In this document: positions 3,618 through 20,874 of the stretch, one piece after another
Numbering within the stretch: position 1 is the first letter of the stretch
How the letters are laid out: every line of letters starts with the position of its first letter
NCBI GenBank assembly: GCA_030824495.1
Contig: JAVBXP010000012.1
Span: 124,001-188,000, forward strand
Direction: 5' to 3'
DNA: 64,000 nt
From: a bacterium
Lineage (GTDB): Bacteria > Pseudomonadota > Alphaproteobacteria > Caulobacterales > Caulobacteraceae
Program-made: the position numbers and the translations under genes
Notes under the pieces: model-generated
Databases searched by the model: none
Seen by the model: the letters and a program-made list of their open reading frames with translations, nothing else
What the model was told of the DNA's origin: nothing

Positions 3618-4229
3618 ATGTTGCTTCGATCCGTGAGCGTCCCGGGGACCCCGCGCCAGCGCGAGCGTCGCCTGGAAAACGTCAAGATTCTCCGCTGGGC
3701 CCTGCCTGTGGCGGCCGGCGCTCTGTTGATCCTCTGCATCGTTCAAGTCGCCCTGAGCATGATGTCGGCGCCGACGCAGGAGGCTGAACCTGCCCAAGTG
3801 TCCAGGATGCTGAAGCCGCATTTCTCGGGCACGAACCCTGACGGCCGGACCTTCAGCATCACTGGCCGCGAAGGCGTGCGAGACGAAAAGCACGCGGGGC
3901 GCATCGTCATCGCCGACCCCGTCATCGTGCTCCGCACCGCCGACGGCGGTATGAAACAGGCCACCGCGAAGTCCGGCGTCTATGACGAACCTGACCACAC
4001 CCTGGTCCTGACTGGCGAGGTGAAGATGGACAACGGGGCAGGCTCGCGCTTCACCGCTCAGGAAGCCCATATCGACACCCGGACGGGCGTAGTCAGCGGC
4101 CAAACCGGCCTGCAGATCGCGCGGGACGACGCACAGGTCCAATCGGGATCCTACACGGTGGAGAACAAGGGCGATCGCCTGATCCTCAAGGGCGGCGTCA
4201 GCGGACGCCTGACCCCGCCGCCACGCTAG
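3618..4229 (+). CDS. LptC-like periplasmic lipid-transport protein
   Basis: A 203-residue protein with a basic N terminus, one membrane segment (about residues 27-48) and a periplasmic beta-rich domain. The domain has repeated glycine/aspartate-bounded strands (DGRTFSITGREG, KSGVYDEPDHTLVLTGEV), as in LptC/OstA-like beta-jellyroll proteins that pass lipid A from LptFG to LptA. It begins the sphingolipid island and is followed at 76 bases by the glycerophosphotransferase-like gene, while lptF and lptG lie 12 kb downstream without an LptA or LptB. It may be a second LptC dedicated to sphingolipid; that is inference. The ATG at 3618 is preferred over a GTG at 3600 because GAGGAGA lies upstream. 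Confidence 0.75.
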   Translation: MLLRSVSVPGTPRQRERRLENVKILRWALPVAAGALLILCIVQVALSMMSAPTQEAEPAQVSRMLKPHFSGTNPDGRTFSITGREGVRDEKHAGRIVIADPVIVLRTADGGMKQATAKSGVYDEPDHTLVLTGEVKMDNGAGSRFTAQEAHIDTRTGVVSGQTGLQIARDDAQVQSGSYTVENKGDRLILKGGVSGRLTPPPR

Positions 4230-4305
4230 ACGAAGCCGTCATGGCTTTGCCGGGCACGAAAGATCCGTTGCGGTCGTGCGAAGACTGCGCCAATCGGCAC
4301 ACGTC

Positions 4306-5448
4306 ATGAACGCGCCCGCGCCCAAGGTCTGTTTTCTCTATATCGCGCAGACGCACCAGATACTGCACAGCCTGCCGATCGCCATCGAACTGGCCCGCAA
4401 CTGGCCGCAGTTCGATGTCCACCTCGCCGCGACCTCGCAGGCCCACCTGGACTATATCGACGAGGCGCTGGCGCAGTTGGGCGACGCGCCGCTGACCACC
4501 ACGCTGCTGGGTCCAAAGTGGCTGCGCGACATCCGGCCTGGCCGGGCCACGACGCCGCCCAAGGCCGCGATGCTGGTCGCCAATGCGCGGCTGCTGGCCG
4601 GTTACGACGCGGTCGTCACGCCGGAACGCACCACGGCCCTGTTGCGGCGACTGGGCGTGAAGCGGACCAAGCTCGTCTATACCCAGCACGGCGCCGGTGA
4701 TCGCGGCGGCCCCTTCGAGCCCCGACTTGGCCTTTTCGATCTGGTGATGGCGGCGGGTCCCAAGCAACGCGACCGCATGATCGACAGCGGCCTGGTGGCG
4801 CCGGAAAACTGCGCGATGGTCGGCTATCCGAAGTTCGACATCGTCGAGGCCCTGTCACCGAAGCCGAAGAACCCCTTCACCGACCAGCGGCCGATCGTCC
4901 TCTACAATCCGCACTTCGACCCGAAACTGAGTTCATGGCCGCGATGGGGAGCTCAGGTGTTGGAGCGGTTCGCCGCCGACGACCGATACAATCTGATTTT
5001 CGCCCCACATGTCAGACTGTTCGACCAGGCCGACGCCCCCGACATGGGGCCGGTAAACCGTTTCGCGGGCCATCCACGCATCCATATCGACCTGGGCGGA
5101 CCGGCCGCCATCGACATGACCTATACCCGCGTGGCCGATGTCTATCTTGGCGACGTCAGCAGCCAGATCTACGAGTTCCTGCGCACGCCAAAGCCGGCGA
5201 TCTTCCTCAACGCCCATGATGTCGACTGGGCTGGCGAAGAAAGCTATCGGCATTGGCGATACGGCCCGGTGCTGAACAATATCGAGGCCCTGCCGGACGC
5301 CGTCGCCACCGCGATCGCCAGCCATGGCGATTATCTGGCCGAGCAGCAGGCCGGATTCGCATCGAGCTTCGACCTGCAGCCGCGCTCCTCTTCGCTAAGA
5401 GCGGCTGAAGCCATCGCTGTCCGGCTGGGCGGGCGCCCGATCCCATGA
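4306..5448 (+). CDS. CDP-glycerol glycerophosphotransferase (TagB/TagF)-like protein
   Basis: A 380-residue GT-B type protein. The motifs YTQHGAG (about residue 125), a following VGYPKFD and, near the C terminus, VYLGDVSSQIYEFLRTPKPAIF match the HG, GYPR and TDYSS...F elements of the teichoic-acid glycerophosphotransferase family. Known members move glycerol-phosphate from CDP-glycerol to a lipid-linked acceptor on the cytoplasmic face of the membrane. Its place next to the ceramide genes makes a sphingolipid phosphoglycerate headgroup a plausible acceptor or product (inference). The stop overlaps the ATG of the flippase (ATGA), so the two are translationally coupled. No signal peptide. Confidence 0.75.
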   Translation: MNAPAPKVCFLYIAQTHQILHSLPIAIELARNWPQFDVHLAATSQAHLDYIDEALAQLGDAPLTTTLLGPKWLRDIRPGRATTPPKAAMLVANARLLAGYDAVVTPERTTALLRRLGVKRTKLVYTQHGAGDRGGPFEPRLGLFDLVMAAGPKQRDRMIDSGLVAPENCAMVGYPKFDIVEALSPKPKNPFTDQRPIVLYNPHFDPKLSSWPRWGAQVLERFAADDRYNLIFAPHVRLFDQADAPDMGPVNRFAGHPRIHIDLGGPAAIDMTYTRVADVYLGDVSSQIYEFLRTPKPAIFLNAHDVDWAGEESYRHWRYGPVLNNIEALPDAVATAIASHGDYLAEQQAGFASSFDLQPRSSSLRAAEAIAVRLGGRPIP

Positions 5449-6770
5449 TCGCGACCTCCCCGGCCAAGGACGGCCTGCTTGGCCGGGTGCTGGCCAATGC
5501 CGGGATGCTGCTCGGCGGGCGCACGCTCAACGCGGTGATCAGCCTGGGTTACATGGCGCTCGCCGCCCGTAGCCTGGGGGTCGCGAACTTCGGCGTTCTG
5601 GTGCTGATCAACACCTTCGCCCAATTCATCGGCGACGTGGCGCGGTTCCAATCGTGGCAAACCGTGCTGCAGTTCGGTCCAGCCCCACTGGCCGAGGGCC
5701 GGCGCGCCGACTTCCAGCGCGTCATTCGTTTCGGCCTGGTCCTGGACGTCGTCAGCGCGGTCGGCGGCGTGGTTATCGGCGTGGTGGGGGTGCTGCTGTT
5801 CGGATCGCTGCTCGGCATGCCGCAAGGCATGGCCGGCCCGGCCGCGCTCTATGCGATCACCATCGCCTTCATGGTTCCCGCAACCCAGATCGGGCTGCTG
5901 CGCCTGTTCGACCGCTTTGGCCTGCTGTCGGTGCAGGCCGCGATCAGCTCACTGATCAGGCTGATCGGCGGCGCCGTTGGGTTCGTCATCGACGCGCCGG
6001 TTTCCTTCTTCCTGCTGGTGTGGGGCGCCGGCACCCTGGCCGGCTTCATCTATGTCAGCGTCATCGCCTGGCAAGAGCTGCGTCGCCGCGATCTGATCTC
6101 AGGCTTCTCCTGGTCAGGGCCGCTAACGGCCGGCATGCCCGGCGCCTGGCGCTTCGCCGTCGCGACCAACGCCAGCGCCAGCGTCGAGGTGGCCTTCACC
6201 CACGTCGCCACCCTGGCGGTCGGCGCCCTGCTAGGTCCGACCGAGGCCGGGCTGTGGCGGGTGGCGCGCCAGATCGCCGACGCCATGGCCAAGCCGGCGC
6301 GGCTGCTCATTCCGGCGATGTATCCAGAGCTCGCCAAGTTACGCGCCTCGGGCGGCGAGGCGGTCATGCAGCGCCTGGCGGTTCGCGTCGGCGTGATCGG
6401 CGGCGGGTTCGCCACCCTGCTGCTGCTCGTGGCGATCTTCGCCGGAGAACCGCTGCTGGCCCTGGTGATGGGCAAGGACTTCGCCAACGCCTCGAACACC
6501 ATGGTCTGGCAGGTCGGGGCTGCGGTCATCGGGGTCTGGGCCCTACCGCTGGAGCCGATGCTGGTCTCGTTGGGCAGGCCCGGCGCGGTGCTTCAGGTCC
6601 GTCTGGTCGTGGCGGCAGTCTTCCTGGCGGCCCTCTCGCCAATCGTGAACACATATGGGCTTGCGGGCGCCGGCGCGGCCCTGGTGGGCGCCTCCCTGGC
6701 CACGGCGCTCGGAATGTTCTGGAGCCTGTGGCGAGTGATGCGGCCTAAAGACCCATCGCGCGGCGCGTAG
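5445..6770 (+). CDS. Polysaccharide/lipid flippase of the MOP superfamily (Wzx-like)
   Basis: A 441-residue integral membrane protein with about 12 hydrophobic helices through its length. The N-terminal NAGMLLGGRTLNAVISLGYMALAARSLG is the usual first helix of Wzx/MurJ-type oligosaccharide flippases, followed by a loop with GVANFGVLVLI. Such proteins flip lipid-linked sugars or lipids to the periplasmic side. It overlaps the glycerophosphotransferase-like gene by four bases and precedes aasR by 46 bases. This suggests a role in moving a modified lipid or its headgroup across the inner membrane; the substrate cannot be read from the sequence. Confidence 0.8.
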   Translation: MIATSPAKDGLLGRVLANAGMLLGGRTLNAVISLGYMALAARSLGVANFGVLVLINTFAQFIGDVARFQSWQTVLQFGPAPLAEGRRADFQRVIRFGLVLDVVSAVGGVVIGVVGVLLFGSLLGMPQGMAGPAALYAITIAFMVPATQIGLLRLFDRFGLLSVQAAISSLIRLIGGAVGFVIDAPVSFFLLVWGAGTLAGFIYVSVIAWQELRRRDLISGFSWSGPLTAGMPGAWRFAVATNASASVEVAFTHVATLAVGALLGPTEAGLWRVARQIADAMAKPARLLIPAMYPELAKLRASGGEAVMQRLAVRVGVIGGGFATLLLLVAIFAGEPLLALVMGKDFANASNTMVWQVGAAVIGVWALPLEPMLVSLGRPGAVLQVRLVVAAVFLAALSPIVNTYGLAGAGAALVGASLATALGMFWSLWRVMRPKDPSRGA

Positions 6771-6816
6771 TAAACTCTTGCGTTACCAGCCGGAAGCGGG
6801 CGAAAGCCGACCTGTC

Positions 6817-8526
6817 ATGATTACGCCCACCGCGCCCGACCGCGCCATTCGATTGGCCGACTTCTCCACACTAGTGGAGGCGCTGGATTTCGCCGCCCAG
6901 GGCGAGACGGGCGTCAATCTCTACGGGCTGCGCGGCGAACTCGCCGAAGCCTTGCCTTACCGCGAGTTGCGGGTCGCCGCCCGTGAGATCGCCGAGCGTC
7001 TGCTGGCCGCCGGCCTGTCGCCTGGCGACCGGGTCGGGCTGATCGCCGAAACCGACGCCGACTTCGTTCGGGCCTTCTTCGCCTGCCAGTATGCAGGCCT
7101 CACCCCAGCGCCCTTGCCTCTGCCCGCGCCGCTCGGCGGCCGCGCCGTCTATCTCGATCAGATCCGCCGCATGTTGCAGTCGGCCAAGGCCAGCGCCCTG
7201 CTGGGCCCGGCCTCGATGGACGCCTGGCTGAAGGAGATCGCCGAAGGCCAAGACCTCTCCTTCGCCGGCCCCCTGGCTGAGCTTCCGGCCTCCCAGGGCC
7301 AGGACCTGCCGGTCATCGCGCCGGATGGCCCCTGCTATCTGCAGTTTTCCTCGGGCAGCACGCGCTTCCCGACCGGCGTGCTGGTCACCCACCGCGCCCT
7401 GATGGCCAACGCCACAGCGATCACCCGCGACGGCCTGCAGGTGCGCCCGCAAGACCGCGCCATTTCGTGGCTGCCGCTCTATCACGACATGGGTCTCGTC
7501 GGTTTCCTGCTCAGCCCGCTGGCCGCGCAGATGTCCGTCGACTTGATGCCGACCGGCGCCTTCGTCCGGCGTCCGCTGCTCTGGCTCGACCTGATCGGCC
7601 GGAACGGGGCGACGATCTCCTACAGCCCGACCTTCGGCTATGAGCTCTGCGCCCGGCGCGGTGAGAACGCAGCGCTCGACCACCTCGACCTCTCGGGCTG
7701 GCGTATCGCCGGGCTTGGCGGCGACATGATCCGCACCAAGCCGCTCAAGGACTTCGCCGAGCGGTTCGCCGCCGCCGGCTTTTCCCCCAGCGCCTTCGTC
7801 GCCAGCTACGGCATGGCCGAGGCGACGCTCGCACTCGCCATGGCCCCGCTGGGTGAGGGCCTGATATCGGAGACCCTGGACGTCGAGCGCCTGGAGAAGG
7901 ACGGTCTGGCGGTCGAAGCTCCCCAGTCGCCCCGCACCCGCGATTTCGCCCGCAACGGCCCGCCCCTCCCCGGCCACGAACTGCAGATCCGCGACGACCG
8001 CGGCGATGTCCTGCCTGAACGCCAGGTCGGCCGGGTTTTCGCCCGCGGCCCCAGCCTGATGGTCGGCTATTTCGATCAGCCTGAGGCGACCAGCCACGTG
8101 CTGTCGGCCGACGGTTGGCTGGACACCGGCGACATCGGCTACCTCTCGGACGGCCAGATCGTCCTGACCGGTCGCAGCAAGGACCTGATCATCCTGAACG
8201 GCCGAAATATCTGGCCGCAGGACCTGGAATGGACGGCCGAGGCCGAGATCGCAGGCCTGCGCAGCGGTGACGTCGCGGCTTTCTCCGCGCCGACCGATGG
8301 CGAGGAAGCGGTTATCGTCCTGGTCCAGTGCCGCAGCAGCGACCCAGAAGTCCGCCAGCGCCTCATCCAGGAAGTGACCGACCTGCTGCGGCTGCGCCAC
8401 AGCGTCGAGCCTCAAGTGAATCTGGTCGGCGGCCACGCCCTGCCCCAAACCTCGTCGGGAAAGCTCAGCCGCTCGCGGGCCAAGGCCGCCTATCTCGCCG
8501 AGCTGGGCGAGAGGGCGACCGTCTAA
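6817..8526 (+). CDS. aasR: Fatty acyl-AMP ligase / acyl-ACP synthetase for sphingolipid synthesis
   Basis: A 569-residue adenylate-forming enzyme. It shows the nucleotide motif LQFSSGSTRFPTGV, the YGMAEATLA motif and GDIGYLSDGQIVLTGRSKDLI of the ANL superfamily, with the overall pattern of fatty acyl-AMP ligases. In Caulobacter the matching gene activates a fatty acid and loads it onto the dedicated acyl carrier protein encoded two genes downstream. It is cytoplasmic. cerR follows after two bases, acpR after that, so aasR-cerR-acpR-spt form one operon. The ATG at 6817 is chosen over a TTG at 6778 because it begins the conserved adenylation domain. Confidence 0.85.
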   Translation: MITPTAPDRAIRLADFSTLVEALDFAAQGETGVNLYGLRGELAEALPYRELRVAAREIAERLLAAGLSPGDRVGLIAETDADFVRAFFACQYAGLTPAPLPLPAPLGGRAVYLDQIRRMLQSAKASALLGPASMDAWLKEIAEGQDLSFAGPLAELPASQGQDLPVIAPDGPCYLQFSSGSTRFPTGVLVTHRALMANATAITRDGLQVRPQDRAISWLPLYHDMGLVGFLLSPLAAQMSVDLMPTGAFVRRPLLWLDLIGRNGATISYSPTFGYELCARRGENAALDHLDLSGWRIAGLGGDMIRTKPLKDFAERFAAAGFSPSAFVASYGMAEATLALAMAPLGEGLISETLDVERLEKDGLAVEAPQSPRTRDFARNGPPLPGHELQIRDDRGDVLPERQVGRVFARGPSLMVGYFDQPEATSHVLSADGWLDTGDIGYLSDGQIVLTGRSKDLIILNGRNIWPQDLEWTAEAEIAGLRSGDVAAFSAPTDGEEAVIVLVQCRSSDPEVRQRLIQEVTDLLRLRHSVEPQVNLVGGHALPQTSSGKLSRSRAKAAYLAELGERATV

Positions 8527-8528
8527 GC

Positions 8529-9554
8529 ATGGCCGCCGGCTTGGTGGCGGTGACGGGGGCCACCGGCTTCCTGGGTCGCCATCTCGTTCGCGAACTCGCC
8601 GCCAGCGGGTGGCAGGTTCGAATTCTCGCAAGGCGAGATGTCATTCACCCGCTCTGGCGCAATTTTGAGGTCGAGGCCGTTCTGGGCGATCTCGCCGACG
8701 CTGGCGCACTAGATCGGTTGTGCCGCGACGCCGATCTTGTCGTCCACTGCGCCGGCCTGACCAAGGCTTGGACCGCCGAGGCGTTCAACGCCGTCAATGT
8801 CGAGGGCGCGCGCCGGGTCGCTGAACGGACCACCGGACGCATGCTGCTGGTCTCCAGCTTGACTGCGCGCGAACCGACCCTTTCGGACTACGCGGCGAGC
8901 AAACACGGCGGCGAAGACGCGGCCCGCGCCGTGCTGGGCGACCGAATCACTGTTGTCCGGCCACCGGCCCTCTACGGTCCGGACGACCCCGAGACGCTGC
9001 CGCTATTCAAGCTCGCCGCTTCAAGCCCGGTGCTCCCCGTGCTCGATCCAAGGGCGCGAATCGCCATGATGCATGTGCAGGACGCGGCGCGGCAGATCGC
9101 CGCTATGGCCCAGCTGAAAGCGCCGCTCACGGTCAGTCTTTCGGACCAGAGGCCGGGCGGATACGGCTGGCGCGAGGTCATGAAGACCGCGGCTGGCGTG
9201 TTCGGAAGATCGCCGCTACTCCTTGAAATTCCAGGGTTTGCGCTCTCGATAGCCGCGGCCGCGGCTCAACTGGCGCCCCGTTCAGGCCCCGCTCCGATGA
9301 TCACGTCCGCCAAGGTGCGAGAGATAACCCATGCGGACTGGTCGATCGCGCCGCACGAGCAACCTATTGAACTTCCAGCCGCCAGCTACGATCTCGCAGA
9401 CGGCTTCCTACACAGCGCCCTGGGCTATAGGTCCGGTGGCGTCAACTTTGGCAACTCAACGATAATCAGCGAAAAGATGCAGCTGACCTACTCGGCGGAC
9501 GACGCCAAATATGCGACGTTCGCGGATGATCGTTCGAGGGGGACGTATCGCTAA
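8529..9554 (+). CDS. cerR: NAD-dependent epimerase/dehydratase, ceramide reductase
   Basis: A 341-residue extended short-chain dehydrogenase. It has the Rossmann motif GATGFLG near residue 10, DLVVHCAGLTK, and the catalytic YAASK. In Caulobacter the gene at this position between aasR and acpR reduces the 3-keto group of the oxidised ceramide. The start lies two bases after the aasR stop and the stop two bases before acpR. The last 40 residues (after LGYRSGG) are polar and look less conserved than the core. Function is assigned mainly from family plus gene order. Confidence 0.82.
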   Translation: MAAGLVAVTGATGFLGRHLVRELAASGWQVRILARRDVIHPLWRNFEVEAVLGDLADAGALDRLCRDADLVVHCAGLTKAWTAEAFNAVNVEGARRVAERTTGRMLLVSSLTAREPTLSDYAASKHGGEDAARAVLGDRITVVRPPALYGPDDPETLPLFKLAASSPVLPVLDPRARIAMMHVQDAARQIAAMAQLKAPLTVSLSDQRPGGYGWREVMKTAAGVFGRSPLLLEIPGFALSIAAAAAQLAPRSGPAPMITSAKVREITHADWSIAPHEQPIELPAASYDLADGFLHSALGYRSGGVNFGNSTIISEKMQLTYSADDAKYATFADDRSRGTYR

Positions 9555-9556
9555 TC

Positions 9557-9808
9557 ATGGACTTGATCACCAACCCAACCGTGCTCGAAGTCGCGCGCGC
9601 CGCTGAGGTGGTTCTTGGCCGCAGCGTTCACGTGACCGCCGCCTCGGACATTTCCCGCGATCTCGCGGTCGATTCACTCGCCCTGATGAACATCGTCATG
9701 GAGCTGGAAGATCGGTTCGACATTTCGATCCCGATCGACCGACTCAGCGAAGTTCAAACGGTGGGCGACCTGTCGTCCCTGATCGACAACATTCGAAACA
9801 AGGCTTGA
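9557..9808 (+). CDS. acpR: Acyl carrier protein dedicated to sphingolipid synthesis
   Basis: An 83-residue acyl carrier protein with the phosphopantetheine attachment motif DSL (Ser40) in DLAVDSLALMNIVMELEDRF. It is acidic and helical along its length. It lies between cerR and spt with two-base spacing to both, as in Caulobacter, where it presents the acyl chain to Spt. Its separation from any fatty-acid synthesis cluster and its tight coupling to spt argue against it being the housekeeping AcpP. Confidence 0.88.
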   Translation: MDLITNPTVLEVARAAEVVLGRSVHVTAASDISRDLAVDSLALMNIVMELEDRFDISIPIDRLSEVQTVGDLSSLIDNIRNKA

Positions 9809-9810
9809 GC

Positions 9811-11028: not shown

Positions 11029-11939
11029 GCCTTCCGCCTAGCCTTCCAGAGCTGCCAGAACACCCCCGGGGACGCCAAGATCAAATGGCGTTCCCGCCAA
11101 GGGGTCACTGTTATGGCCACGCCTGTGTGTCGCTCGATCTTCCACGCTGCATAGCGCCCAGCGCCTTCGAAGGTGAAGGCCGCCTTGACCAGCCGCGCCA
11201 GGTTCAGCGGTTTGCCTAGGGTGCGTCGCAACCGCCAAGCGCGCAGCAGACGCGACCGTTCGGCCTCGCCGAGCATTGGGCGCAATTGGCCCGCATCGCT
11301 TTCATAGGGGACATCGCCCGCCTCCCAGGCGGCCGGCAGGATGGCGTCATAGCGTTCTGGCGCATTGGCGATGATCTGCGCCTCGCGCCCCGTGGCCTCC
11401 ACCCGGAACTCGGCGGCGTAGGTCTGGCGAAACAGCGCGGTCCAATAGGCCTGGGGCGCGCCTTGGGCAGGCCCCACAACGGCGGCGAAACGGGCGGCGG
11501 TGATTGCGGCCTGCGCCACGGCCAGACGCACCTGGCCTGCTATCTCCGCATTGAGCGACCACACCAGGGCGGATGGCTGGACGAAGCGAGTCCAGATGGT
11601 GGTGTCCAGGCCCTTGCCCGTCACCGCTCGGCTGAACTGCGCCACCGTCATCGAGGCGACCTTGGCGCGGTAGACCCGGCCATCGGCCTCGAACTCGTGA
11701 TAGCTGACGTCGGGCCAGAGCACCCGGCCGGCCAGCCCGCGCAGCCCCGGACGCGGAGCCGTCGTCAGGACGTAGAAGTCCATCACGCCCTCGACATCGC
11801 CGGTACGCAGCACTGAGCCGTAGAACAAGACCGCGCCCGAATTCGCGAACCGCCGCGTCAGATCAGCGCCCATCGCCGCGGCGTGGGCGGGTGGAACCGC
11901 GTCCAGCTCGGCCGTGATCAGGGCGTCGAGACTCGTCAT
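11025..11939 (-). CDS. cpgC: Nucleotidyltransferase-like protein of the ceramide phosphoglycerate cluster
   Basis: A 304-residue soluble protein. FYGSVLRTGDVEGVMDFYVL (about residues 39-58) has the GS...D-x-[FD]-x pattern of the polymerase-beta-like nucleotidyltransferases, close in style to Tam41-type phosphatidate cytidylyltransferases. It is the last gene of a three-gene operon and overlaps cpgB by four bases. The symbol follows gene order in Caulobacter, recalled from the literature, where this position is cpgC. An attractive role is transfer of CMP to ceramide-phosphate or to a headgroup precursor; that is inference. Confidence 0.65.
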   Translation of the reverse strand: MTSLDALITAELDAVPPAHAAAMGADLTRRFANSGAVLFYGSVLRTGDVEGVMDFYVLTTAPRPGLRGLAGRVLWPDVSYHEFEADGRVYRAKVASMTVAQFSRAVTGKGLDTTIWTRFVQPSALVWSLNAEIAGQVRLAVAQAAITAARFAAVVGPAQGAPQAYWTALFRQTYAAEFRVEATGREAQIIANAPERYDAILPAAWEAGDVPYESDAGQLRPMLGEAERSRLLRAWRLRRTLGKPLNLARLVKAAFTFEGAGRYAAWKIERHTGVAITVTPWRERHLILASPGVFWQLWKARRKA

Positions 11940-12865
11940 GGCGCCAGGAACCGCATCGGCGCGCCCCGACGAACGAGGATCTCGCCGCCAGGAAACACCT
12001 CGCCATCGACGATCACCGCCTCGGGGACCGAGACGGTCAGCCGCTCCGCCTGCTGCCGGCGATAGCCGTTGCGGCCGAGCCAGGGCGCAGCACGCCCGGC
12101 CAGCAAGGTCGGAAGCGCCGCAAGCAGCAGCCGCGGAGGGCTATCGACGTCCAGCACCTTCATGGCGTCCGTAGGCGGGCCGAACGGTTTGAGACCAAAG
12201 GGCAGGCGCTTGAGCGTGGTCGCCATCAACACGAACCGCTCGCCGATCGGCAAGGGCTGGTCGTCCACCTGGCCGGTCAGGCGCACGCCCTGCCGCCACT
12301 GGTCGCGCCGTCCCCCGAAGAGGGTCCCGAACGCCGCGCCCGCGAGGGTCAGCGCCACAGACAGGCTGTGATAGGCACCCATCTTGTGCACCGACTGGGA
12401 CATCTGGGTCGCGCGCACAAAAGCGCCCAGGCCAAAGACGAAGCCGCGCACGGGGTGGCGCGCGGCGTCCGTCCAGCTGACTTCCAGCGGCGTGCGGGTC
12501 TTGTAGAAGGGCTGGGCCTGGGCCGCTCGGCTCAGGATCGCGTCAAGATCCCAGCCGCGCCGCGCGCCAAGATCCAGGGCCAGGATGTTGGTCTTTCCCG
12601 AGGCCAGAATCGCCAGCACCGGCGGCTGGTCGCCATAGGCGTCGGGTAGGACGGTTAGGACCTCGCGGACCGTGCCGTCCCCACCGTCGATAACCACCAG
12701 GCCCACGCCGTCGGCGGCGAACCGGCGCATGTCGTCGGCCAAGGCCTGCGGCGTCGCCGGCTCGACCCAGAGCACGCCCTCTGGTCGGGTTCCGGCGGCT
12801 TGCTGACGATTGGCGTGGCTCCGTGGATTATGGACCACGCCGACCTTGGTCAGCGCGACAGCCAC
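11936..12865 (-). CDS. cpgB: Ceramide kinase-type lipid kinase (DAGK family)
   Basis: A 309-residue kinase of the diacylglycerol kinase catalytic-domain family. The nucleotide motif GGDGT is in VIDGGDGTVREVLTVLP (about residues 61-77). Other hallmarks are the N-terminal NPRSHANR and the C-terminal beta domain ending in VPEAVIVDGEVFPGGEILVR. In Caulobacter the middle gene of this cluster phosphorylates ceramide to ceramide-1-phosphate. It starts with GTG at 12865, overlapping the end of cpgA by 16 bases, and its stop overlaps the cpgC start (ATGA), so the three are translationally linked. YegS/DgkB-like activity on diacylglycerol is the alternative. Confidence 0.8.
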   Translation of the reverse strand: MAVALTKVGVVHNPRSHANRQQAAGTRPEGVLWVEPATPQALADDMRRFAADGVGLVVIDGGDGTVREVLTVLPDAYGDQPPVLAILASGKTNILALDLGARRGWDLDAILSRAAQAQPFYKTRTPLEVSWTDAARHPVRGFVFGLGAFVRATQMSQSVHKMGAYHSLSVALTLAGAAFGTLFGGRRDQWRQGVRLTGQVDDQPLPIGERFVLMATTLKRLPFGLKPFGPPTDAMKVLDVDSPPRLLLAALPTLLAGRAAPWLGRNGYRRQQAERLTVSVPEAVIVDGEVFPGGEILVRRGAPMRFLAP

Positions 12866-13992: not shown

Positions 13993-14004
13993 TGCCGCCA
14001 ACCG

Positions 14005-14017: not shown

Positions 14018-14066
14018 GAGAACTGATAATCAGCTTCGCCGCCGCCTGACCAGAAACCATCTTCCG

Positions 14067-14960
14067 TTGCAACCGTTTCGCCTCGCCCATCTGTCCGATC
14101 CGCATCTACAGCCGCCCGCCGGCGCGCTGGCGCCTGGCGACTTCGTATCAAAGCGGCTGCTCAGCGCGATCGCCTGGCGCCGCAAGGGGCGCGAGCATCA
14201 GCCGCGCGTGCTGGATGCGCTCACCGCCGATATCGCCGCCTATGGTCCTGATCATATCGCCCTGACCGGCGATCTGACGAACTTCTCGACTCAGGGCGAG
14301 TTCGCGGCCGCGCAAGCCTGGCTCCGGACCCTGGGACCGGCCGCCAACCTCACCCTCAGCCCGGGCAACCACGACGCCCTGGTGGCGAAGAACGCGCCCG
14401 ACAGTTTCGCCCCGTGGCGGGAGTGGCTGGAAGATCCCGGCGACACGGCGTTTCCGGCAGTTCGGCGGCGCGGCCCGGTCGCCCTGGTCAATCTCTGCTC
14501 GGCGACGCCCACCGCGCCCTGGCTGGCGACCGGACGTTTGGGCGATGTCCAATTGGCGCGGCTGGCGACCATCCTGGACCAACTTCATCAGGATGGCCTG
14601 TTCCGCGTGCTCCTGATCCACCACCCGCCGACCGGCGGGATCGTCTCCAAACGCAAATCGCTGGAGGACGCCCCCGCCCTGCGCGCCCTGCTGCAGGCGA
14701 AGGGCGCTGAACTGATCCTGCACGGCCACGCCCATGAGGCGGCGGTAAGCACGCTGCCCGGTCTCGGCGGCGCCATTCCGGTGCTGGGCGTGCCTTCAGC
14801 CTCGGCGGTCGGCCACGGAAAGCACCCGCCGGCTCGGTGGCACGGCATTGAGATCGCCCCGGACCAGCGCAAGATCCGGGTCGTCGCACGCGGCCTGTCG
14901 TCAGAGACCGGCGCGTTCGAACCGCTTGGAAGCTACCTGCTCGATACGGCTCAGGGATAG
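14067..14960 (+). CDS. Metallophosphoesterase (calcineurin-like)
   Basis: A 297-residue phosphoesterase with all five metal motifs in order: LSDPHL (residues 9-14), LTGDLTN, SPGNHD, LIHHPP and LHGHAHE. This is the Icc/CpdA-like branch of binuclear metal phosphoesterases. It has no signal peptide, so it acts in the cytoplasm. Divergent from cpgA and inside the sphingolipid island, it may cleave a nucleotide-linked or phospholipid intermediate, but the substrate is not shown by sequence. The best start is TTG at 14067, giving the usual MQPFRLAHLSDPHL beginning. Its end overlaps the DUF2141 gene by ten bases. Confidence 0.82.
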   Translation: MQPFRLAHLSDPHLQPPAGALAPGDFVSKRLLSAIAWRRKGREHQPRVLDALTADIAAYGPDHIALTGDLTNFSTQGEFAAAQAWLRTLGPAANLTLSPGNHDALVAKNAPDSFAPWREWLEDPGDTAFPAVRRRGPVALVNLCSATPTAPWLATGRLGDVQLARLATILDQLHQDGLFRVLLIHHPPTGGIVSKRKSLEDAPALRALLQAKGAELILHGHAHEAAVSTLPGLGGAIPVLGVPSASAVGHGKHPPARWHGIEIAPDQRKIRVVARGLSSETGAFEPLGSYLLDTAQG

Positions 14961-15421
14961 CGCATGCGCAGGGCCGTCCGACTAGCCCCGGCCGGCACGC
15001 GGAAACGGACGGCGTTGTACGCCGGCAGGCCGACCGTGGTCGGCGCGTCGTTCGAGAAGCCATATCCTTCGGTCGGCATGCCCACGAGGCTCCGGTTGAA
15101 GTCACGATCGGCGTTGATGTCGTGATAGACCGCGATGGCGTAGAAGCCCGGCCCCGGCAGGAAAAAGCACGTGGTGGTGGTCGGCGTCCTGGCCGGTACC
15201 CGTTGGCGCGCCAACTTACCCTTTGGCGCCAGGAAGCGCTTGGCGTCGTCCGGATAGATGGTGATCGCCACCTCGCCCTTCGCGGAGCGGATGTTGCTGA
15301 CACTCACAGTCAGACGATGCTCGCTCGGCTTGCCGGCGCACTCCTCGGCCGCCAGGGCCGGCGTCGCCGCCAAGGCGAGAAATGCGAAGACCGAGGCCGT
15401 CGGACCGGTTCGGACTTTCAT
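14951..15421 (-). CDS. Secreted DUF2141 family protein
   Basis: A 156-residue protein with a clear signal peptide (hydrophobic stretch about residues 9-21, cleavage near TPALAAEE). The mature part has the DUF2141 pattern: VSNIRSAKGEVAITIYPD, a FYAIAVYHDINADRDFNRSLVGMPTEGYGFSND core and a final strand. Proteins of this family are periplasmic or outer-membrane associated beta-sandwiches of unknown role. Cysteines at about residues 28 and 85 could form a disulfide. It lies within the sphingolipid island between the phosphoesterase and the HIT gene, transcribed on its own. Confidence 0.8.
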   Translation of the reverse strand: MKVRTGPTASVFAFLALAATPALAAEECAGKPSEHRLTVSVSNIRSAKGEVAITIYPDDAKRFLAPKGKLARQRVPARTPTTTTCFFLPGPGFYAIAVYHDINADRDFNRSLVGMPTEGYGFSNDAPTTVGLPAYNAVRFRVPAGASRTALRMRYP

Positions 15422-15483
15422 GAAAATCGACGACTCCCTATGGTGCGCCACACGGCGGCTGACGCCAGACAAGCAGGCTGCTC

Positions 15484-15921
15484 ATGAGTAACCAGACCGC
15501 CGTTAACTTCGGCTTCCCCAGGACGATGGTGGCCGAAACCAGCCATTGGCTGGTGCTCGTGCGTCCCAAGCAGCCCACATTTGGGTCTCTGGTCTTGGTA
15601 TGCAAGGAGCCGGTCCAAGCGTTCTCCAATGTCAGTCCCGAGGCTTTCGCCGATCTGCAGGTCGCCATCAAGGGTATCGAGCGACTCCTGCAGGACAAGG
15701 TGAAGTACGAGAAGATCAACTATCTGATGTTGATGATGGTCGATCCCGACGTCCACTTCCATGTGATCCCGCGCTACGCCGGGGTTCGCGACCACGCGGG
15801 CATGAGCTTCCCAGATGCGGGTTGGCCAGGTCCGCCGGCGCTCGGAACCGCCGTGGACCTCAGCGACGACACGCTTGAGGCCTTGGCCCAGGCCTGGCGC
15901 CGCGAATGGCGCACGGCGTGA
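15484..15921 (+). CDS. HIT family nucleotide-binding protein
   Basis: A 145-residue histidine-triad protein; the motif VHFHVIPRY (H-x-H-x-x-P variant of HxHxHxx) is at about residues 96-104. HIT proteins hydrolyse or transfer nucleoside monophosphates from phosphoramidates or dinucleotides. The third histidine of the triad is replaced by a proline-containing segment, as in several galT/HIT-like branches. It directly precedes lptF, with its stop inside or just before the lptF start region, so the two are likely co-transcribed. Confidence 0.82.
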   Translation: MSNQTAVNFGFPRTMVAETSHWLVLVRPKQPTFGSLVLVCKEPVQAFSNVSPEAFADLQVAIKGIERLLQDKVKYEKINYLMLMMVDPDVHFHVIPRYAGVRDHAGMSFPDAGWPGPPALGTAVDLSDDTLEALAQAWRREWRTA

Positions 15922-15941
15922 CCGCGGCCGGAACACGACCC

Positions 15942-17147
15942 ATGCGGCCCCGTTTCGGGCTGTCGCTCATCGACCGCTACGTGCTGCGCCTGACGACCGG
16001 CCCGATGCTGGCTTGCTTGGCCGTCACGCTGGTCGCCCTGCTGCTGGAACGCGCCCTGCGGCTGCTGGACCTGTTGTCGCAAAGCAGCGACCGCTTCGGA
16101 TATGTCGTCCAACTCACCGGCCAGTTGGTGCCGCACTATTTCGGCCTGGCCCTGCCGGTGGCGTTCTTCGTGGCGCTGTTCATCGTCATCACCAAGCTGA
16201 GCGACGGATCGGAAATCGACGCCCTGCTGGCCAGCGGCTTTTCGCTGACGCGCCTGGCGGCGCCCTTCGTCGGCCTCGGCGTCCTGCTGGCGATCGTCAG
16301 CATCATCGTGTTCGGCTACGCCCAGCCCTATAGCCGCTACGCCTATCGCGCGGTCATGCACGCCGCCGCAACGGCCGGCTGGAACGGTCAGCTCCAGGCG
16401 GGCGCATTCGTAACCGACGACAAGCTGATCATGACCGCCGACCAGGCAGACCCGAAGGGGCAGAGGCTGGAACGGCTGTTCATCCGCCGAATGAACCCTG
16501 AAGGCCGCGAGGAGGTGATCACCGCCGAGTCCGCCGACCTCCATGTCGCCGACGATGGCGCCACCGTGACGCTGATCCTGCGAAACGGACGGCGCATCCT
16601 CCAATCGGCGACTGGCGACTTCAGCATCCTGCAGTTCGAGACCTTCACGACCAAGGCGCCGCTGGCCGGGTCCAGCGCCCTGCTACGCGCACGCGGCGGT
16701 GACGAACGCGAACTCACCCTCGGCGAATTGGCCGAACGGGCGAAGTCCCACAACAGCATCCTGCCGCGCGCGACGGTCTTGGCTGAGCTCTATGCCCGCC
16801 TCGCACGGGCTATCTTCCTGCCATTCCTGCCGCTGATCGCCTTCCCGCTCGGATTGGCCGCCAAGCGCGGTCGCCGCGCGCCGGGCCTCATATTCGCCGG
16901 ACTGCTGCTGCTCGCCTTCCAACACTCGCTGCAGCTCGGGCAGAGCCTGGCGGAGGCGGGGCGCCTGCCGGCCTTCGCCGCGATCGGTACGCCGTTGCTG
17001 CTGTTCACCGGCTTTGGCGTCTGGATGTTCGCCGGCAGCCGCAATCGCCCGGGTGAGACCCCTATCAGCCTGTTCATCGCCTCCATCACCGATGGCTGCG
17101 GCCGGGTGCTTGGCGCCTTCCGCCTCAGGCGAGCGGCCTCGGCATGA
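15942..17147 (+). CDS. lptF: LPS export ABC transporter permease LptF
   Basis: About 401 residues of the LptF/LptG (YjgP/YjgQ) family. It has two N-terminal and one following helix (LSLIDRYVLRLTTGPMLACL; VPHYFGLALPVAFFVALFIVI), a large periplasmic jellyroll (about 130-270), then three C-terminal helices. The A-specific LSDGSEIDALLASG coupling segment follows helix 2. It forms the inner-membrane half of the LptB2FG extractor that feeds lipid to LptC. The lptG start overlaps its stop (ATGA). An upstream ATG at 15906 within the HIT gene is also possible. Confidence 0.88.
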   Translation: MRPRFGLSLIDRYVLRLTTGPMLACLAVTLVALLLERALRLLDLLSQSSDRFGYVVQLTGQLVPHYFGLALPVAFFVALFIVITKLSDGSEIDALLASGFSLTRLAAPFVGLGVLLAIVSIIVFGYAQPYSRYAYRAVMHAAATAGWNGQLQAGAFVTDDKLIMTADQADPKGQRLERLFIRRMNPEGREEVITAESADLHVADDGATVTLILRNGRRILQSATGDFSILQFETFTTKAPLAGSSALLRARGGDERELTLGELAERAKSHNSILPRATVLAELYARLARAIFLPFLPLIAFPLGLAAKRGRRAPGLIFAGLLLLAFQHSLQLGQSLAEAGRLPAFAAIGTPLLLFTGFGVWMFAGSRNRPGETPISLFIASITDGCGRVLGAFRLRRAASA

Positions 17148-18202
17148 CCCTCTCCAAATTCGTCCGGCGCACCGTCGCTCTGCGTATTCTCGCCGCCGCA
17201 GCCATCCTGCTCAGCGTGCTGCAGATCCTCGACCTGCTGGACGTCACCACTGAGATCCTCGATCGCGGGCTCGGCGTCAGCGGCGTCGCCTACTATGCGG
17301 CGCTGCGGTTCCCCCGTCTGATCGAGCAGGTCGCGCCGCTCAGCGTTCTGGCGGGCGGCCTGTTCGCCTTCGCCCAGCTGGCCCGCGAAAGCGCGGTGAT
17401 CGCCATGCGCGCCACCGGCGTCTCGGTCTATCGGCTGATCGGCATGGCGGCCCCCGCCGCCTTCCTCGTGATGATCGTCGATTACGTCACCGTCGAGGTG
17501 ATCGCGCCCCGGACCGACCCGATCCTGGAAGCCTGGTGGAGCGACACCGCGCCGAAGAGCGACACGGTCCCCGGCCCCCGCCCGTTCCGCTCCGGCGCGG
17601 ACATCGTCGTGGCCCAGCCCGGCGACGTCGCCGGCGCGCGTCTCACTGACATAAAGATCTACCGCCGCAACCCAGCCGGCGCCGTGGCCGAGCGTATCGA
17701 AGCGCCTCTGGCGACCTATGGCGAAGGCGGCTGGAAGCTGCATGATCCCAAGATGGTCCGCTTCACGCAGGACGAGGCTATGCGCTCGACCGCCGCCGAG
17801 TTGATCTGGAACACCAACCTCCAGCCGGCCGACGTGCAGGTCTTGCTGTCGCCGCAACAGACCCCCAACGCCGCCAGCGCCCGGCGCGCCCTGAAGGGCG
17901 GCGGCTCGGAGCGACCGGCCAGCTACTACGCCGTACGGCTCCAACAGGCGTTTGCTGGACCGGTCGGCATCCTGGTCATGCTGCTGCTCTCTGCGCCGGT
18001 GGCGCTCGGCAACTTCCGTAATCGCGAGGGCGCCGTGCTGACGGCCGCGAGCGTCGGCGCCGGGTTGCTGTTCCTGGTGACCGACGGGCTGTTGAACGCG
18101 CTGGGCGAAGGGGCGGCGCTATCTCCGGTGCTGGCCGCCTGGACCGCGCCTCTGGTCTTCGCCGCGCTCGCGACGACAGTCCTGCTCAGGATGGAAGGAT
18201 AA
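17144..18202 (+). CDS. lptG: LPS export ABC transporter permease LptG
   Basis: A 352-residue partner of LptF with the same plan: N-terminal helices, the coupling segment LARESAVIAMRATGVSVYRLIGM, a periplasmic domain (about 125-270) and C-terminal helices from about residue 270. LptG and LptF extract lipopolysaccharide from the inner membrane. Immediately downstream (four bases) lies cerS, so a lipid export subunit and a ceramide synthase gene share one transcript. lptB and lptA are not in the window. Confidence 0.88.
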   Translation: MTLSKFVRRTVALRILAAAAILLSVLQILDLLDVTTEILDRGLGVSGVAYYAALRFPRLIEQVAPLSVLAGGLFAFAQLARESAVIAMRATGVSVYRLIGMAAPAAFLVMIVDYVTVEVIAPRTDPILEAWWSDTAPKSDTVPGPRPFRSGADIVVAQPGDVAGARLTDIKIYRRNPAGAVAERIEAPLATYGEGGWKLHDPKMVRFTQDEAMRSTAAELIWNTNLQPADVQVLLSPQQTPNAASARRALKGGGSERPASYYAVRLQQAFAGPVGILVMLLLSAPVALGNFRNREGAVLTAASVGAGLLFLVTDGLLNALGEGAALSPVLAAWTAPLVFAALATTVLLRMEG

Positions 18203-18206
18203 GGCC

Positions 18207-19358
18207 TTGAGTTCCGGCCCCCATGGCCCCCTGAGCATTACCGAGGTCACGTCGAAGGCGCAGATGGCGCGGTTCATCCGCCTGCCAATGACGCTGAACG
18301 CCGCCGATCCCGCCTGGATCCCGCCGCTGATCAGCGAGCGTCAGGCCGCCTTGAGCGCGAAGTCCAATCCGTTCTTCGAGCATGCCGAGGTGCAGTTCTG
18401 GATCGCCAGCCGCGACGGGCGCGACGTCGGCCGGATCAGCGCCCAGATCGACGCACTGTCGCCGACCGATCCGCAGGCGCCGGCCGGCAATTTCGGAATG
18501 ATCGCGGCCGAGGATGACGCCGAGGTGTTCGCCGCCCTCCTGGCGACCGCGGAGGCCTGGCTAAAGGCGCGCGGCTGCGTCACCGCGCTGGGCCCGTTCA
18601 ACCTCTCGATCAACGAGGAGGTCGGACTGCTGGTGGACGGGTTCGACACGCCGCCCATGGTGATGATGGGCCACGACCCGGCCTATGTCGGCGGCCAGAT
18701 CGAAGCCCAGGGCTACGCCAAGGCCAAGGACATCTACGCCTATCTCTCCAAGATGAGTGACGACATGCCCCCGGCCGTGCTGCGTCGTGTCCGAAGGGGG
18801 CCGGCGCCGGGGGTCACCCTGCGGATGCTGGACATGAAGCGGTACGACGCCGAAGTCGCGGCCCTGACCGACATTCTCAACGACGCCTGGAGCGGCAACT
18901 GGGGTTTCACCCCCACCACCGAGGCTGAGACCCGGCAACTCGCCAAGTCCCTGCGCGCGGTGATCGACCATCGCATGGTCTGGTTCGCCGAGATCGACGG
19001 GGAGACGGCTGGCTTTGTCGCGGCGCTGCCCAACCTGAACGAGGCCATCGCCGATCTCGGCGGCAAGCTGGCCCCGTTCGGCTGGGCCAAGCTGCTCTGG
19101 CGGTTGAAGGTGGCCCGGGTGAAGTCGATCCGCGTGCCGTTGATGGGCGTGAAGCGGAAGTTCGCCAGCACGCACCGCGGTCAGGTCCTGCCCTTCCAGC
19201 TGATCGACGCCGCCGCGACCCAGGCCCGGGCTCTGGGCTATGAATGGTGCGAAATGTCCTGGATTCTGGAGGACAACGTGGCCATGCGGAACATCTGCGA
19301 ACGGGCCGGCGCGAGGGTCTACAAGACCTATCGCATCTACCAGAAGGCGCTGGTTTGA
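18207..19358 (+). CDS. cerS: Bacterial ceramide synthase (GNAT-fold N-acyltransferase)
   Basis: A 383-residue protein with an N-terminal GNAT domain (WIPPLISERQAALSAKSNPFFEHAEVQFWIA, then DGRDVGRISAQID) and a second acyltransferase-like domain (about 200-380, VWFAEIDGETAGFVAALPNLNEA). Bacterial ceramide synthases of this type N-acylate the sphingoid base; the Caulobacter gene lies at the same place after the lpt genes. The start is TTG at 18207 with AGGATAAGG just upstream; no in-frame ATG exists before residue 21. The stop overlaps the start of the next gene (TTGA), so the two are coupled. Confidence 0.83.
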   Translation: MSSGPHGPLSITEVTSKAQMARFIRLPMTLNAADPAWIPPLISERQAALSAKSNPFFEHAEVQFWIASRDGRDVGRISAQIDALSPTDPQAPAGNFGMIAAEDDAEVFAALLATAEAWLKARGCVTALGPFNLSINEEVGLLVDGFDTPPMVMMGHDPAYVGGQIEAQGYAKAKDIYAYLSKMSDDMPPAVLRRVRRGPAPGVTLRMLDMKRYDAEVAALTDILNDAWSGNWGFTPTTEAETRQLAKSLRAVIDHRMVWFAEIDGETAGFVAALPNLNEAIADLGGKLAPFGWAKLLWRLKVARVKSIRVPLMGVKRKFASTHRGQVLPFQLIDAAATQARALGYEWCEMSWILEDNVAMRNICERAGARVYKTYRIYQKALV

Positions 19359-20116
19359 CCCCGTTCACCGCCCTGGTCCTGGCCGGTTCGCGCGGCGAAC
19401 CCGACGCGCTGTCAGCCTATGCCGGCGTATCCCACAAGGGCCTGATCCAGCTTGGGGGCCAGACCCTGCTGGAGCGGGTGATCAGGGCGCTCGACGCCGC
19501 CGGGGCGAGTCACATCGGCGTCTCGACCTCGGATGGGGGCGTCATCACGGCCCTGGGGAGCCTCAAGACCAAGGCGCATCTGGAGGCCCTGCCCGCCTCC
19601 ACGAGCCCAAGTCTGAGCGTCGGACAAGGCGCGCGCGCGCTTGGACTGCCGGTGCTGGTCACCACGGTGGACCACGCGCTGCTGCAGCCGGAGTGGGTTC
19701 AGCAGTTCCTGGGCGACATTCCAGCGGGCGCCGACGTCGCAGCCTTGCTGGCGCCGGAGGCGGCGGTCCGCGCCGCGGCGCCGGACACGATCCGCAGTTA
19801 CATGAAGTTCCGGGACGGCCGATATTCCGGCTGCAACCTGTTCTATCTGCGCAACGAGCGCGCGCTGGCGGTCATCGATCTCTGGCGACAGGTAGAGGCG
19901 CACCGCAAGCAGCCCTGGAAGATCGCGGCCATGCTGGGTCCGGCGATGCTGGTTGGTTACTTGCTGGGCCGCCTGACGCTGGACGAGGCTGTCCAGCGCT
20001 TGGGTCGCAAGGCTGGTGTCGAGGCGGCCGCCGTCCGCACGCCTTACGGCTTGGCGGCCGTCGACGTCGACAAGCCCGCCGATCTGGACCTCGTGCGCCG
20101 CTTGGTCGAAGCCTAG
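19355..20116 (+). CDS. MobA-like NTP transferase
   Basis: A 253-residue protein with the nucleotidyltransferase N terminus TALVLAGSRGEPDALSAYAG...KGLIQLGGQTLLERVIRAL, in which the usual Gly-rich loop is LAGSRG and the following Lys is present; a TVDHALL segment stands where the metal-binding Asp lies. Such enzymes make NDP-sugars, CDP-alcohols or molybdopterin dinucleotides. Translation begins at a TTG overlapping the cerS stop, so it belongs to the lptF-lptG-cerS operon and may make an activated headgroup donor (inference). Its end overlaps the convergent nucleotidyltransferase gene by four bases. Confidence 0.7.
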   Translation: MTPFTALVLAGSRGEPDALSAYAGVSHKGLIQLGGQTLLERVIRALDAAGASHIGVSTSDGGVITALGSLKTKAHLEALPASTSPSLSVGQGARALGLPVLVTTVDHALLQPEWVQQFLGDIPAGADVAALLAPEAAVRAAAPDTIRSYMKFRDGRYSGCNLFYLRNERALAVIDLWRQVEAHRKQPWKIAAMLGPAMLVGYLLGRLTLDEAVQRLGRKAGVEAAAVRTPYGLAAVDVDKPADLDLVRRLVEA

Positions 20117-20874
20117 ACGGCGACCGGCTGGCGCGACCAGCTCTCGGTCAGTTCGAGATTGCGCGCCACGTCCTCGGGGAAATCCATCTCGGCCCAGTCC
20201 AGGCCCTGGATGGAGACCACCGAAACTTCGTCGCCGCCTTGAGCCATTTCGTTGATGACGCTGAGGTACCAGCGCTTCAGGCCTTCGGGGGAACGCATGA
20301 TCTGCTCCACCGTGCGCACGAACGCCGCCGCGCCCTCCGGCGAAAAGCGCAGGAAGCCAATCGATTCGGCATCGAATTCGGTGATGGTCTTGCCGATTGA
20401 CCGCAGCCGGGAGCCTTCGGTCAGCACCTTCATGTCGTCAGCGTCGTAGCTGCCTTTGCGATCGACGGTCACGGTGACGGCAGATGCGGCCGCATCCAGC
20501 AGGCGCGAGGCGATGGCCGGCTCGAACAGGGTGTCGCCGTTGAGCAGCAGGAACGCGCCCTTCATCTCCTCGCGGGCAAGCCAGCAGGTCGCGAGGTTGT
20601 CGGTCAGGCCATAGAACGGGTTGAACAACGTGCGGACCTTCAGGTCCGGTAGGGCCAGCTTGGCGATCTCGTCCTCGACGGCGTCGGCGCCGAACCCGGT
20701 CACCACCACGACTTCCTTCAGGCCGGCGGCCTTCAGGTGCAGCAGTTGCCAGTGCAACACGCTCTTGCCCGACAGTTCGATCAGGCATTTCGGCCGGGTG
20801 TCGGTCAGGGGCGAAAGACGACGGCCCTGGCCTGCGCTCAGGATGATGGCCTTGCCGATGTTCATCTTGGACAT
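20113..20874 (-). CDS. Sugar/choline-phosphate nucleotidyltransferase family protein
   Basis: A 253-residue nucleotidyltransferase with the complete signature ILSAGQGRRLSPLTDTRPKCLIEL, then LLLNGDTLFEP for the metal site. The overall pattern is that of the LicC-like phosphocholine cytidylyltransferase branch. It produces an NDP- or CDP-activated small molecule; which one is unknown. It ends the sphingolipid island, convergent with the MobA-like gene. The start at 20874 (MSKMNIGKAIIL) is followed closely by a second ATG at 20865. Confidence 0.78.
   Translation of the reverse strand: MSKMNIGKAIILSAGQGRRLSPLTDTRPKCLIELSGKSVLHWQLLHLKAAGLKEVVVVTGFGADAVEDEIAKLALPDLKVRTLFNPFYGLTDNLATCWLAREEMKGAFLLLNGDTLFEPAIASRLLDAAASAVTVTVDRKGSYDADDMKVLTEGSRLRSIGKTITEFDAESIGFLRFSPEGAAAFVRTVEQIMRSPEGLKRWYLSVINEMAQGGDEVSVVSIQGLDWAEMDFPEDVARNLELTESWSRQPVAV

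Follow-up and report, generated by a model that had tools for sequence, protein, structure and literature searches.

A second LptF-LptG pair in a ceramide gene island of a Phenylobacterium-like bacterium, a candidate exporter of sphingolipids

Why does a gene island for sphingolipid synthesis carry genes of the lipopolysaccharide (LPS) exporter family, and which of their products would handle the lipid that the island makes? The question is raised by a 64,000-nt stretch of bacterial DNA (the window, to which coordinates refer unless a locus is named), whose nearest named relative is Phenylobacterium (CpgA 99% identical in locus L143) and in which positions 3600-20874 hold Caulobacter-type genes for ceramide and the ceramide-phosphoglycerate lipid CPG2, with genes added for an LptC-like protein (LptC2) and for two permeases (LptF2 and LptG2, together LptFG2). 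An earlier note on this DNA had proposed that the LptC-like protein is a partner for the export of anionic sphingolipid and shares LptFG with LPS export. The same 17-gene region has been described in C. crescentus (CC_1168-CC_1152; Olea-Ozuna 2024, PMC11324152), where CC_1168, CC_1156 and CC_1155 were named a second LptC, LptF and LptG and were regarded as probably acting in phosphosphingolipid transport, which was not investigated there (legend to its Fig. 4). The basic transport idea has already been published, and the window adds one more member; relative to the cited text of PMC11324152, the rule that links LptFG2 to spt across genomes, the genomes in which such a pair is the sole one, and the origin of LptC2 are new. 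According to the passages cited from two 2024 papers, the route of bacterial sphingolipids from the inner to the outer membrane is not known or no transporter has been identified (PMC11324152, PMC11087976). Our search of the open-access (PMC) literature, which did not extend to subscription papers and most preprints, found no study in which an Lpt exporter was tested for sphingolipid transport, and PMC11324152 was the sole proposal found. The genes in question, with counterparts to C. crescentus CC_ genes assigned here and below by position, are:

3600..4229, + strand: LptC2, LptC-like protein with an N-terminal membrane helix judged by eye; CC_1168 counterpart; PF06835 at 45.7 bits (cut-off 21)
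15906..17147, + strand: LptF2, island-type exporter permease; PF03739 at 228.7 bits over the full length, and tree
17144..18202, + strand: LptG2, island-type exporter permease; PF03739 at 203.7 bits over the full length, and trees

Two LptF-LptG pairs in one genome

The genome contains four LptF/LptG genes, namely the window pair and a canonical pair on contig C34, where it adjoins an LptD-like gene; over the aligned part, the two pairs are ~23% (LptF) and ~27% (LptG) identical (L077 compared with the window). Because the canonical LptFG sits by lptD on another contig, the island brings its own LptF2-LptG2, and the sharing of LptFG that had been proposed does not describe this genome; the earlier note missed that the island genes are its second pair. 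The expectation that the LptC-like gene is an extra copy, apart from lptA and lptB, held up: there are two LptC genes, one in the window and one (lptC1) on contig C30, directly followed by lptA and lptB, and the window gene is not the only lptC. A single LptA was found in this genome, as was a single LptB above the curated cut-off, and no LptA or LptB belonging to the island system was detected in it.

The two adjacent window permeases match PF03739 over their full length (cut-off 27.9 bits). They fall under the cut-offs of the NCBIfam families TIGR04407 and TIGR04408 (199.3 against 230 and 219.3 against 240), and the canonical pair of the same genome is above them (252.3 and 249.5). These cut-offs were rejected as a separator of the two types, since the Sphingomonas-like pair, a fused pair and the LptF2 of Stella, all of the island type, also pass. 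The types were separated by trees; rows with under 300 profile positions and identical rows had been removed before the LptF tree and a quick LptG tree were made. In the careful LptG tree (71 rows; L308, L319, L325 and L335 were removed as long or odd, and two of the 13 sole-pair genomes described below were among them), 45 island rows stood apart from 26 canonical rows with a split of 99/96, the window being on the non-canonical side. In the LptF tree (81 rows), the island side held 54 rows, including four orphan copies, with a Shimodaira-Hasegawa-like approximate likelihood ratio test (SH-aLRT) value of 99.

Occurrence of LptFG2 and LptC2 with ceramide synthesis

In a sample of 60 genomes of the same family, spt, the gene for serine palmitoyltransferase (SPT), called at E values up to 1e-80, was found in 15. 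These 15 genomes had 3 to 8 PF03739 matches, with at least 4 in 14 of them and 3 in G059, where the island reaches the contig end, and the 45 spt-free genomes had 2 matches in 41 cases and 3 in 4. An island-type LptF was located in 15/15 genomes with spt (LptF only in G013, and with LptG only partial in G059). A kinship-aware test on a tree of canonical LptF and LptG (40 genomes, 15 with spt) gave six independent contrasts with p 0.031, where the LptFG2 trait was set equal to spt and the four spt-free genomes with three PF03739 matches were scored as lacking LptFG2. LptB above the cut-off was found once in 58 of the 60 genomes, twice in G046 and not in G036, and was single in 14/15 genomes with spt. 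A second LptC at a separate place was found in G000, G018, G035 and G056 only, and a weak second LptC stretch next to the first in G002, G032 and G037. LptFG2, to a greater degree than LptC2, is the steady partner of ceramide synthesis. Of the idea that the LptC-like protein is the partner for sphingolipid export, the extra copy is real, but it was detected at a separate place in 4/60 genomes, as compared with the second LptFG in 15/15 genomes with spt. A pair that accompanies spt in 15/15 family genomes, next to a canonical pair that is present regardless of spt, makes a precise exporter candidate. An additional island-type LptF gene was seen in G035 (L062), away from the island; the stretch retrieved around it contained no LptG partner.

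In Alphaproteobacteria at large, spt was found in 32 of 240 genomes, and at least four LptF/G matches were present in 13/32 genomes with spt as compared with 1/208 without it (Fisher p 4e-12, uncorrected for kinship). The other 19 genomes with spt had two LptF/G matches in 17 cases and none in two (G140 and G145); spt, cerS and cerR were observed in G140 (spt at L322). In 13 of the 17 single-pair genomes, including two Sphingomonas-like ones (G087 and G219), the sole pair lies in a ceramide island or beside cerS. Both in the LptF tree and in the quick LptG tree, all 13 linked sole pairs fall with the island type, as do the 11 of them that were kept in the careful LptG tree. The SPT of G087 and G219 is close to the solved SPTs 2jg2 (E 6e-211) and 2x8u (E 3e-202), which we take to be Sphingomonas enzymes. 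The pair of these two genomes groups with the island copy of G197, which also keeps a canonical pair. By this grouping, the two genomes seem to have the copy of sphingolipid type and to be without that of LPS type. It has been reported that some sphingolipid formers, for example Sphingomonas koreensis, are without LPS (PMC11324152).

Among 16 named island genomes, both LptFG pairs were present in 15, and the metagenome-assembled genome G070 had the island pair only; no LptC was detected in G070. A second LptC was found in two Caulobacter genomes and in P. deserti. It is already published that clusters of beta- and gammaproteobacteria may be without LptC2 (PMC11324152); N. eutropha, A. vinelandii and P. 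luteola were reported to have at least 13 of the 17 region genes yet no CC_1168 (LptC2) ortholog (PMC11324152). The window LptC2 scores 34.7 against a cut-off of 38 for TIGR04409, and the LptC1 of the same genome is likewise without an NCBIfam match at 1e-8. In the LptC tree, which was profile-chosen and had 38 rows and a short alignment (27 loci without a confident LptC domain were excluded and 14 LptC2 rows thinned), 19 LptC2 rows came together (94/91) and adjoined Caulobacter LptC1, and the LptC2 of P. deserti, on a long branch, grouped with Phenylobacterium LptC1 (99/93). On this grouping, LptC2 tentatively looks like a later Caulobacteraceae duplicate, apparently arisen twice, that was added late onto a far older LptFG2. 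In P. deserti (L184), the gene stands left of the cpgD counterpart, where the island has its other end, and this copy may have been duplicated independently.

A possible sphingolipid exporter and its rivals

Our preferred reading, to which we give a probability of roughly 0.7, is that the window encodes a ceramide-lipid exporter built on LptF2G2, with a shared LptB, probably a shared LptA and LptD, and LptC2 as an optional adaptor. The island would make ceramide, add phosphoglycerate headgroups and encode its own lipid extractor, in which LptF2 and LptG2 would form the membrane part of an Lpt-type ATP-binding cassette (ABC) exporter and the shared LptB would be the ATPase. The exporter would extract the completed sphingolipid where it lies in the outer leaflet of the inner membrane and push it to the outer membrane over a jellyroll bridge of Lpt type, formed by the shared LptA and LptD. 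The duplicated LptC of Caulobacter and some Phenylobacterium could serve as the exporter's own adaptor, and where a second LptC was undetected, the single LptC might serve both pairs. For C. crescentus, co-fitness values of 0.78 for CC_1168 and CC_1159 and of 0.60 for CC_1156 and CC_1159 have been reported (PMC11324152).

The earlier note's link to an anionic headgroup proved weaker than the link to ceramide, for CpgA was found in 7/60 family genomes compared with spt in 15/60; LptFG2 tracks the ceramide core more closely than CpgA does. Minimal islands of the order aasR-cerR-acpR-spt-lptF2-lptG2-cerS, without cpgABC in the stretch, are present at L053, L058, L068, L070 and L044. CpgA was not found anywhere in the genomes with minimal islands (G021, G034, G046, G055 and G008), cpgB and cpgC not being searched for genome-wide, and cpgA, cpgB and cpgC were not found within 19 kb in the Sphingomonas-like stretch L305. 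This hints that LptFG2 may be independent of the headgroup. Each of the five genomes with a minimal island encodes LptF2 and LptG2 as a single uninterrupted chain of 763-780 aa, in these continuous open reading frames (ORFs):

Fused LptF2-LptG2: L053, 4575-6896; L058, 4920-7229; L044, 3208-5499; L068, 2970-5264; L070, 12248-14590

Continuous LptF2-LptG2 ORFs were seen at nine loci, the claim of a fusion being made for the five related family genomes; the fusion at L222 was not relied on and may be an indel artefact, since there is a Met where LptG starts and its relatives are unfused. The model of a fused protein (predicted local distance difference test, pLDDT, 74.7; predicted template modelling score, pTM, 0.63) matches the LptG and LptF chains of solved LptB2FG complexes.

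Residues whose roles in ATP contact, coupling and the cavity have been described (PMC6744409, PMC5548808; the ATP-contact arginines are named in PMC6744409) were compared, with E. coli LptF/LptG numbering, in a wide set of 53 island and 27 canonical LptF rows and of 49 island and 25 canonical LptG rows. For LptG, a near set of 78 island rows was also used, from which five short pieces had been dropped and which contains the near-twin L143 in place of the window. The ATP-contact arginines are present in the window (LptF R292, found in 52/53 island and 27/27 canonical rows; LptG R301, found in 44/49 and 24/25), and E84 of the LptF coupling helix, which faces LptB, is Glu in the window and in 51/53 island rows. 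In the cavity, Leu occupies the position of LptF F26 in 45/53 island rows as compared with 2/27 canonical ones, and Arg occupies that of R33 in 49/53 island rows as compared with 11/27; in a Shigella structure, according to the cited passages, R33 makes a bond with the 1'-phosphate of lipid A. The LptG positions K34 and R136, which face the lipid A phosphates, are Asp and Trp in the window and Ser and Arg in the canonical LptG of the same genome. Both were dropped as marks of a substrate change: the Lys is missing from canonical LptG of the family too, and Trp at R136, found in 77/78 near and 30/49 wide island rows including the window, is a lineage mark. The cavity and the coupling differ in places, and these differences do not name the substrate.

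The rival that survives best, though we consider it unlikely, is that LptFG2 carries both lipid classes and serves LPS as well in single-pair genomes. A loss of LPS could not be demonstrated for the 13 single-pair genomes, and LptB, and probably LptA and LptD, are shared; however, the two types stay apart in sequence, with the 99/96 split in the LptG tree, and the cavity positions LptF F26 and R33 differ. It is a little less probable still that LptFG2 is a spare LPS exporter whose place in a ceramide operon is incidental, used perhaps when LPS is made in a different setting. The two types do belong to the same family with full-length matches, and some island-type proteins pass the NCBI cut-offs for LPS exporters. 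However, LptFG2 co-occurs with spt, its linkage to ceramide genes holds over alpha-, beta- and gammaproteobacteria, and two Sphingomonas-like genomes have no pair but the island-type one; S. koreensis, of that group, is reported to be without LPS (PMC11324152). That LptC2 is a sphingolipid-specific adaptor on a shared LPS-type LptFG, as first proposed for this DNA, is very improbable: the island does encode LptC2, and co-fitness of CC_1168 with the cpg genes and spt is reported for C. crescentus (PMC11324152), but the island has its own pair with the LPS-type pair elsewhere, and a second LptC was undetected, though LptFG2 was present, in 11/15 spt-bearing family genomes and 13/16 named island genomes.

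Several points weigh against a sphingolipid exporter built on LptF2G2. What it would carry, which way the lipid would move, whether LptB, LptA and LptD take part and how the lipid is flipped are all inferred. The use of LptB by the island pair is not certain, since the LptB-facing LptG E88 is Ala in the window and in 52/78 island rows of the near set (Glu in 26/78; Glu in 40/49 island rows of the wide set), while it is Glu in 40/40 near and 25/25 wide canonical rows. The sole pair of G153, G154, G269 and G307 was not located in the fetched spt and LptFG regions, and PF03739 had no match in the spt-bearing genomes G140 (complete, 5.4 Mb) and G145 (82% complete). In G133 (678 kb of ~1.6 Mb), ftsZ, an MsbA-like protein and a weak KdsB-like match were found, and lpxA, lpxB, lpxC, lpxD, lpxK and waaA were not found in the 678 kb; bamA, fabZ, rnhB and coaD were missed too and there was no LPS-making control, hence the result is uninformative. 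Finally, S. wittichii was described as having scattered orthologs of most region genes and as one that should be able to make CPG and CPG2 (PMC11324152), which weakens the case that the LptFG of sphingomonads would serve a different headgroup.

We advance a broader proposal with slightly less than even confidence, namely that LptFG2 would be an ancient exporter of ceramide lipids without a tie to one particular headgroup, working on a shared LptB, and a general proteobacterial route of sphingolipids to the outer membrane. In the Sphingomonas-like lineages and a number of others among the Alphaproteobacteria, it would have taken over completely from the LPS-type LptFG, so that the proteins scored there as LPS exporters would export sphingolipids, and LptC2 would be a late, repeatedly acquired specialist adaptor. 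If the reading of LptFG2 as a sphingolipid exporter is right, Lpt machines are not limited to LPS, two permease pairs can be driven by one LptB, and an exporter can be named for the surface lipids of sphingomonads that are free of LPS.

Layout of the island and related systems

The remaining genes of the island are:

4276..5448, + strand: protein of 390 aa with a glycosyltransferase B (GT-B) fold, candidate TagF-like phosphoglycerate transferase; CC_1167 counterpart; no Pfam match at 1e-3, fold model
5445..6770, + strand: flippase candidate, Polysacc_synt-like; CC_1166 counterpart; PF01943 at 23.1 bits, under the cut-off of 28.2
6778..8526, + strand: aasR, AMP-binding acyl-ACP synthetase, real start perhaps further in; PF00501
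8529..9554, + strand: cerR, ceramide reductase, start picked by eye in ORF 8328-9554; PF01370
9557..9808, + strand: acpR, acyl carrier protein (ACP); PF00550
9805..11028, + strand: spt, serine palmitoyltransferase; PF00155
11025..11939, - strand: cpgC counterpart, by synteny; no match in Pfam and NCBIfam
11936..12865, - strand: cpgB, ceramide kinase, diacylglycerol kinase (DAGK)-like; PF00781
12850..14151, - strand: cpgA, CDP-alcohol phosphotransferase; PF01066
14067..14960, + strand: metallophosphatase; CC_1158 counterpart; PF00149 at 47.9 bits
14951..15472, - strand: DUF2141 protein, accessory, absent from some islands; PF09912
15484..15921, + strand: HIT-domain protein, overlaps lptF2; PF01230
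18207..19358, + strand: cerS, bacterial ceramide synthase, GNAT-like; PF00583 and synteny
19244..20116, + strand: nucleotidyltransferase-like protein, real start probably ~19358 by eye; CC_1153 counterpart; PF12804
20113..20874, - strand: cpgD counterpart (CC_1152, ccna_01210 by gene order), phosphoglycerate cytidylyltransferase, function taken from passages of PMC12275187; PF12804/PF00483

The genes, order and junctions named for this region beforehand are all present, with 4-base overlaps of LptF/LptG and of spt/acpR and a gap of 4 bases between LptG and cerS, and the layout is that of the published Caulobacter ceramide-phosphoglycerate region, with the order aasR-cerR-acpR-spt, cpgABC, cerS and cpgD kept. 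In addition to the genes listed in the earlier note, the island encodes the GT-B protein, the flippase-like protein (CC_1166 was called a potential flippase in PMC11324152), the metallophosphatase, the DUF2141 and HIT proteins and two nucleotidyltransferase-like proteins. Among the best 80 of 339 CpgA-like loci, 64 extended for 6.5 kb or more past cpgA on the relevant side; in these, the HIT gene was found by tblastn in 63/64, lptF2 in 62/64, lptG2 in 63/64 and cerS in 63/64, so that the arrangement exceeds chance. The HIT gene stands before lptF2 in the islands in spite of its having been judged unrelated, its mutants being without high co-fitness (PMC11324152). The island of G059 (L042) has an aasR that is cut down and a transposase-like ORF close by, judged by eye; cpgA, the flippase gene, the GT-B gene and LptC2 were not found in that stretch.

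The model of the GT-B protein (pLDDT 80.5) has TagF/TarL among its top fold matches, tied with UDP-N-acetylglucosamine (UDP-GlcNAc) 2-epimerases. By sequence, it is not placed in the TagF family (PF04464 at 13.3 bits against a curated cut-off of 22.1), and PF04464 was seen weakly in three of four members of the GT-B group, relatives of which are present in islands of Nevskia, Stella, Aureimonas and Burkholderiales. In the 50 loci that extend 3.3 kb or more past aasR, LptC2 and the GT-B gene were both present in 24, LptC2 only in 4, the GT-B gene only in 5 and neither in 17 (Fisher p 9e-6, uncorrected for kinship); LptC2 as a strict partner of the GT-B protein was rejected, as the two are linked with 4 + 5 exceptions. 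CC_1167 and CC_1157 have been treated as probably unrelated to the region (PMC11324152). CpgD has been reported to make CDP-glycerate, in a route likened to that of TagD/TagF, with the transfer ascribed to CpgA (PMC12275187). The GT-B protein is perhaps a second CDP-glycerate-using transferase of the island, a guess that we lean somewhat away from. The CDP-glycerate of CpgD parallels the CDP-glycerol made by TagD for wall teichoic acid (PMC12275187), and the GT-B fold is like that of TagF; however, the sequence match to TagF is under the curated cut-off and other GT-B families fit the fold equally well.

The closest system is the C. crescentus region, which has the same genes in the same order and for which the same proposal was made, namely that phosphosphingolipid is carried to the outer membrane by the second set of Lpt proteins; the organism here differs in being Phenylobacterium-like. 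With the E. coli-type LptB2FGC complex, the island pair shares the permease family, the pairing in an operon, the ATP-contact arginines and, as modelled on a fused relative, the fold. In contrast to that complex, the island pair has no LptB or LptA of its own detected here, carries Trp at LptG R136 in the window as in the majority of wide island rows, forms a separate sequence branch and is linked to ceramide genes.

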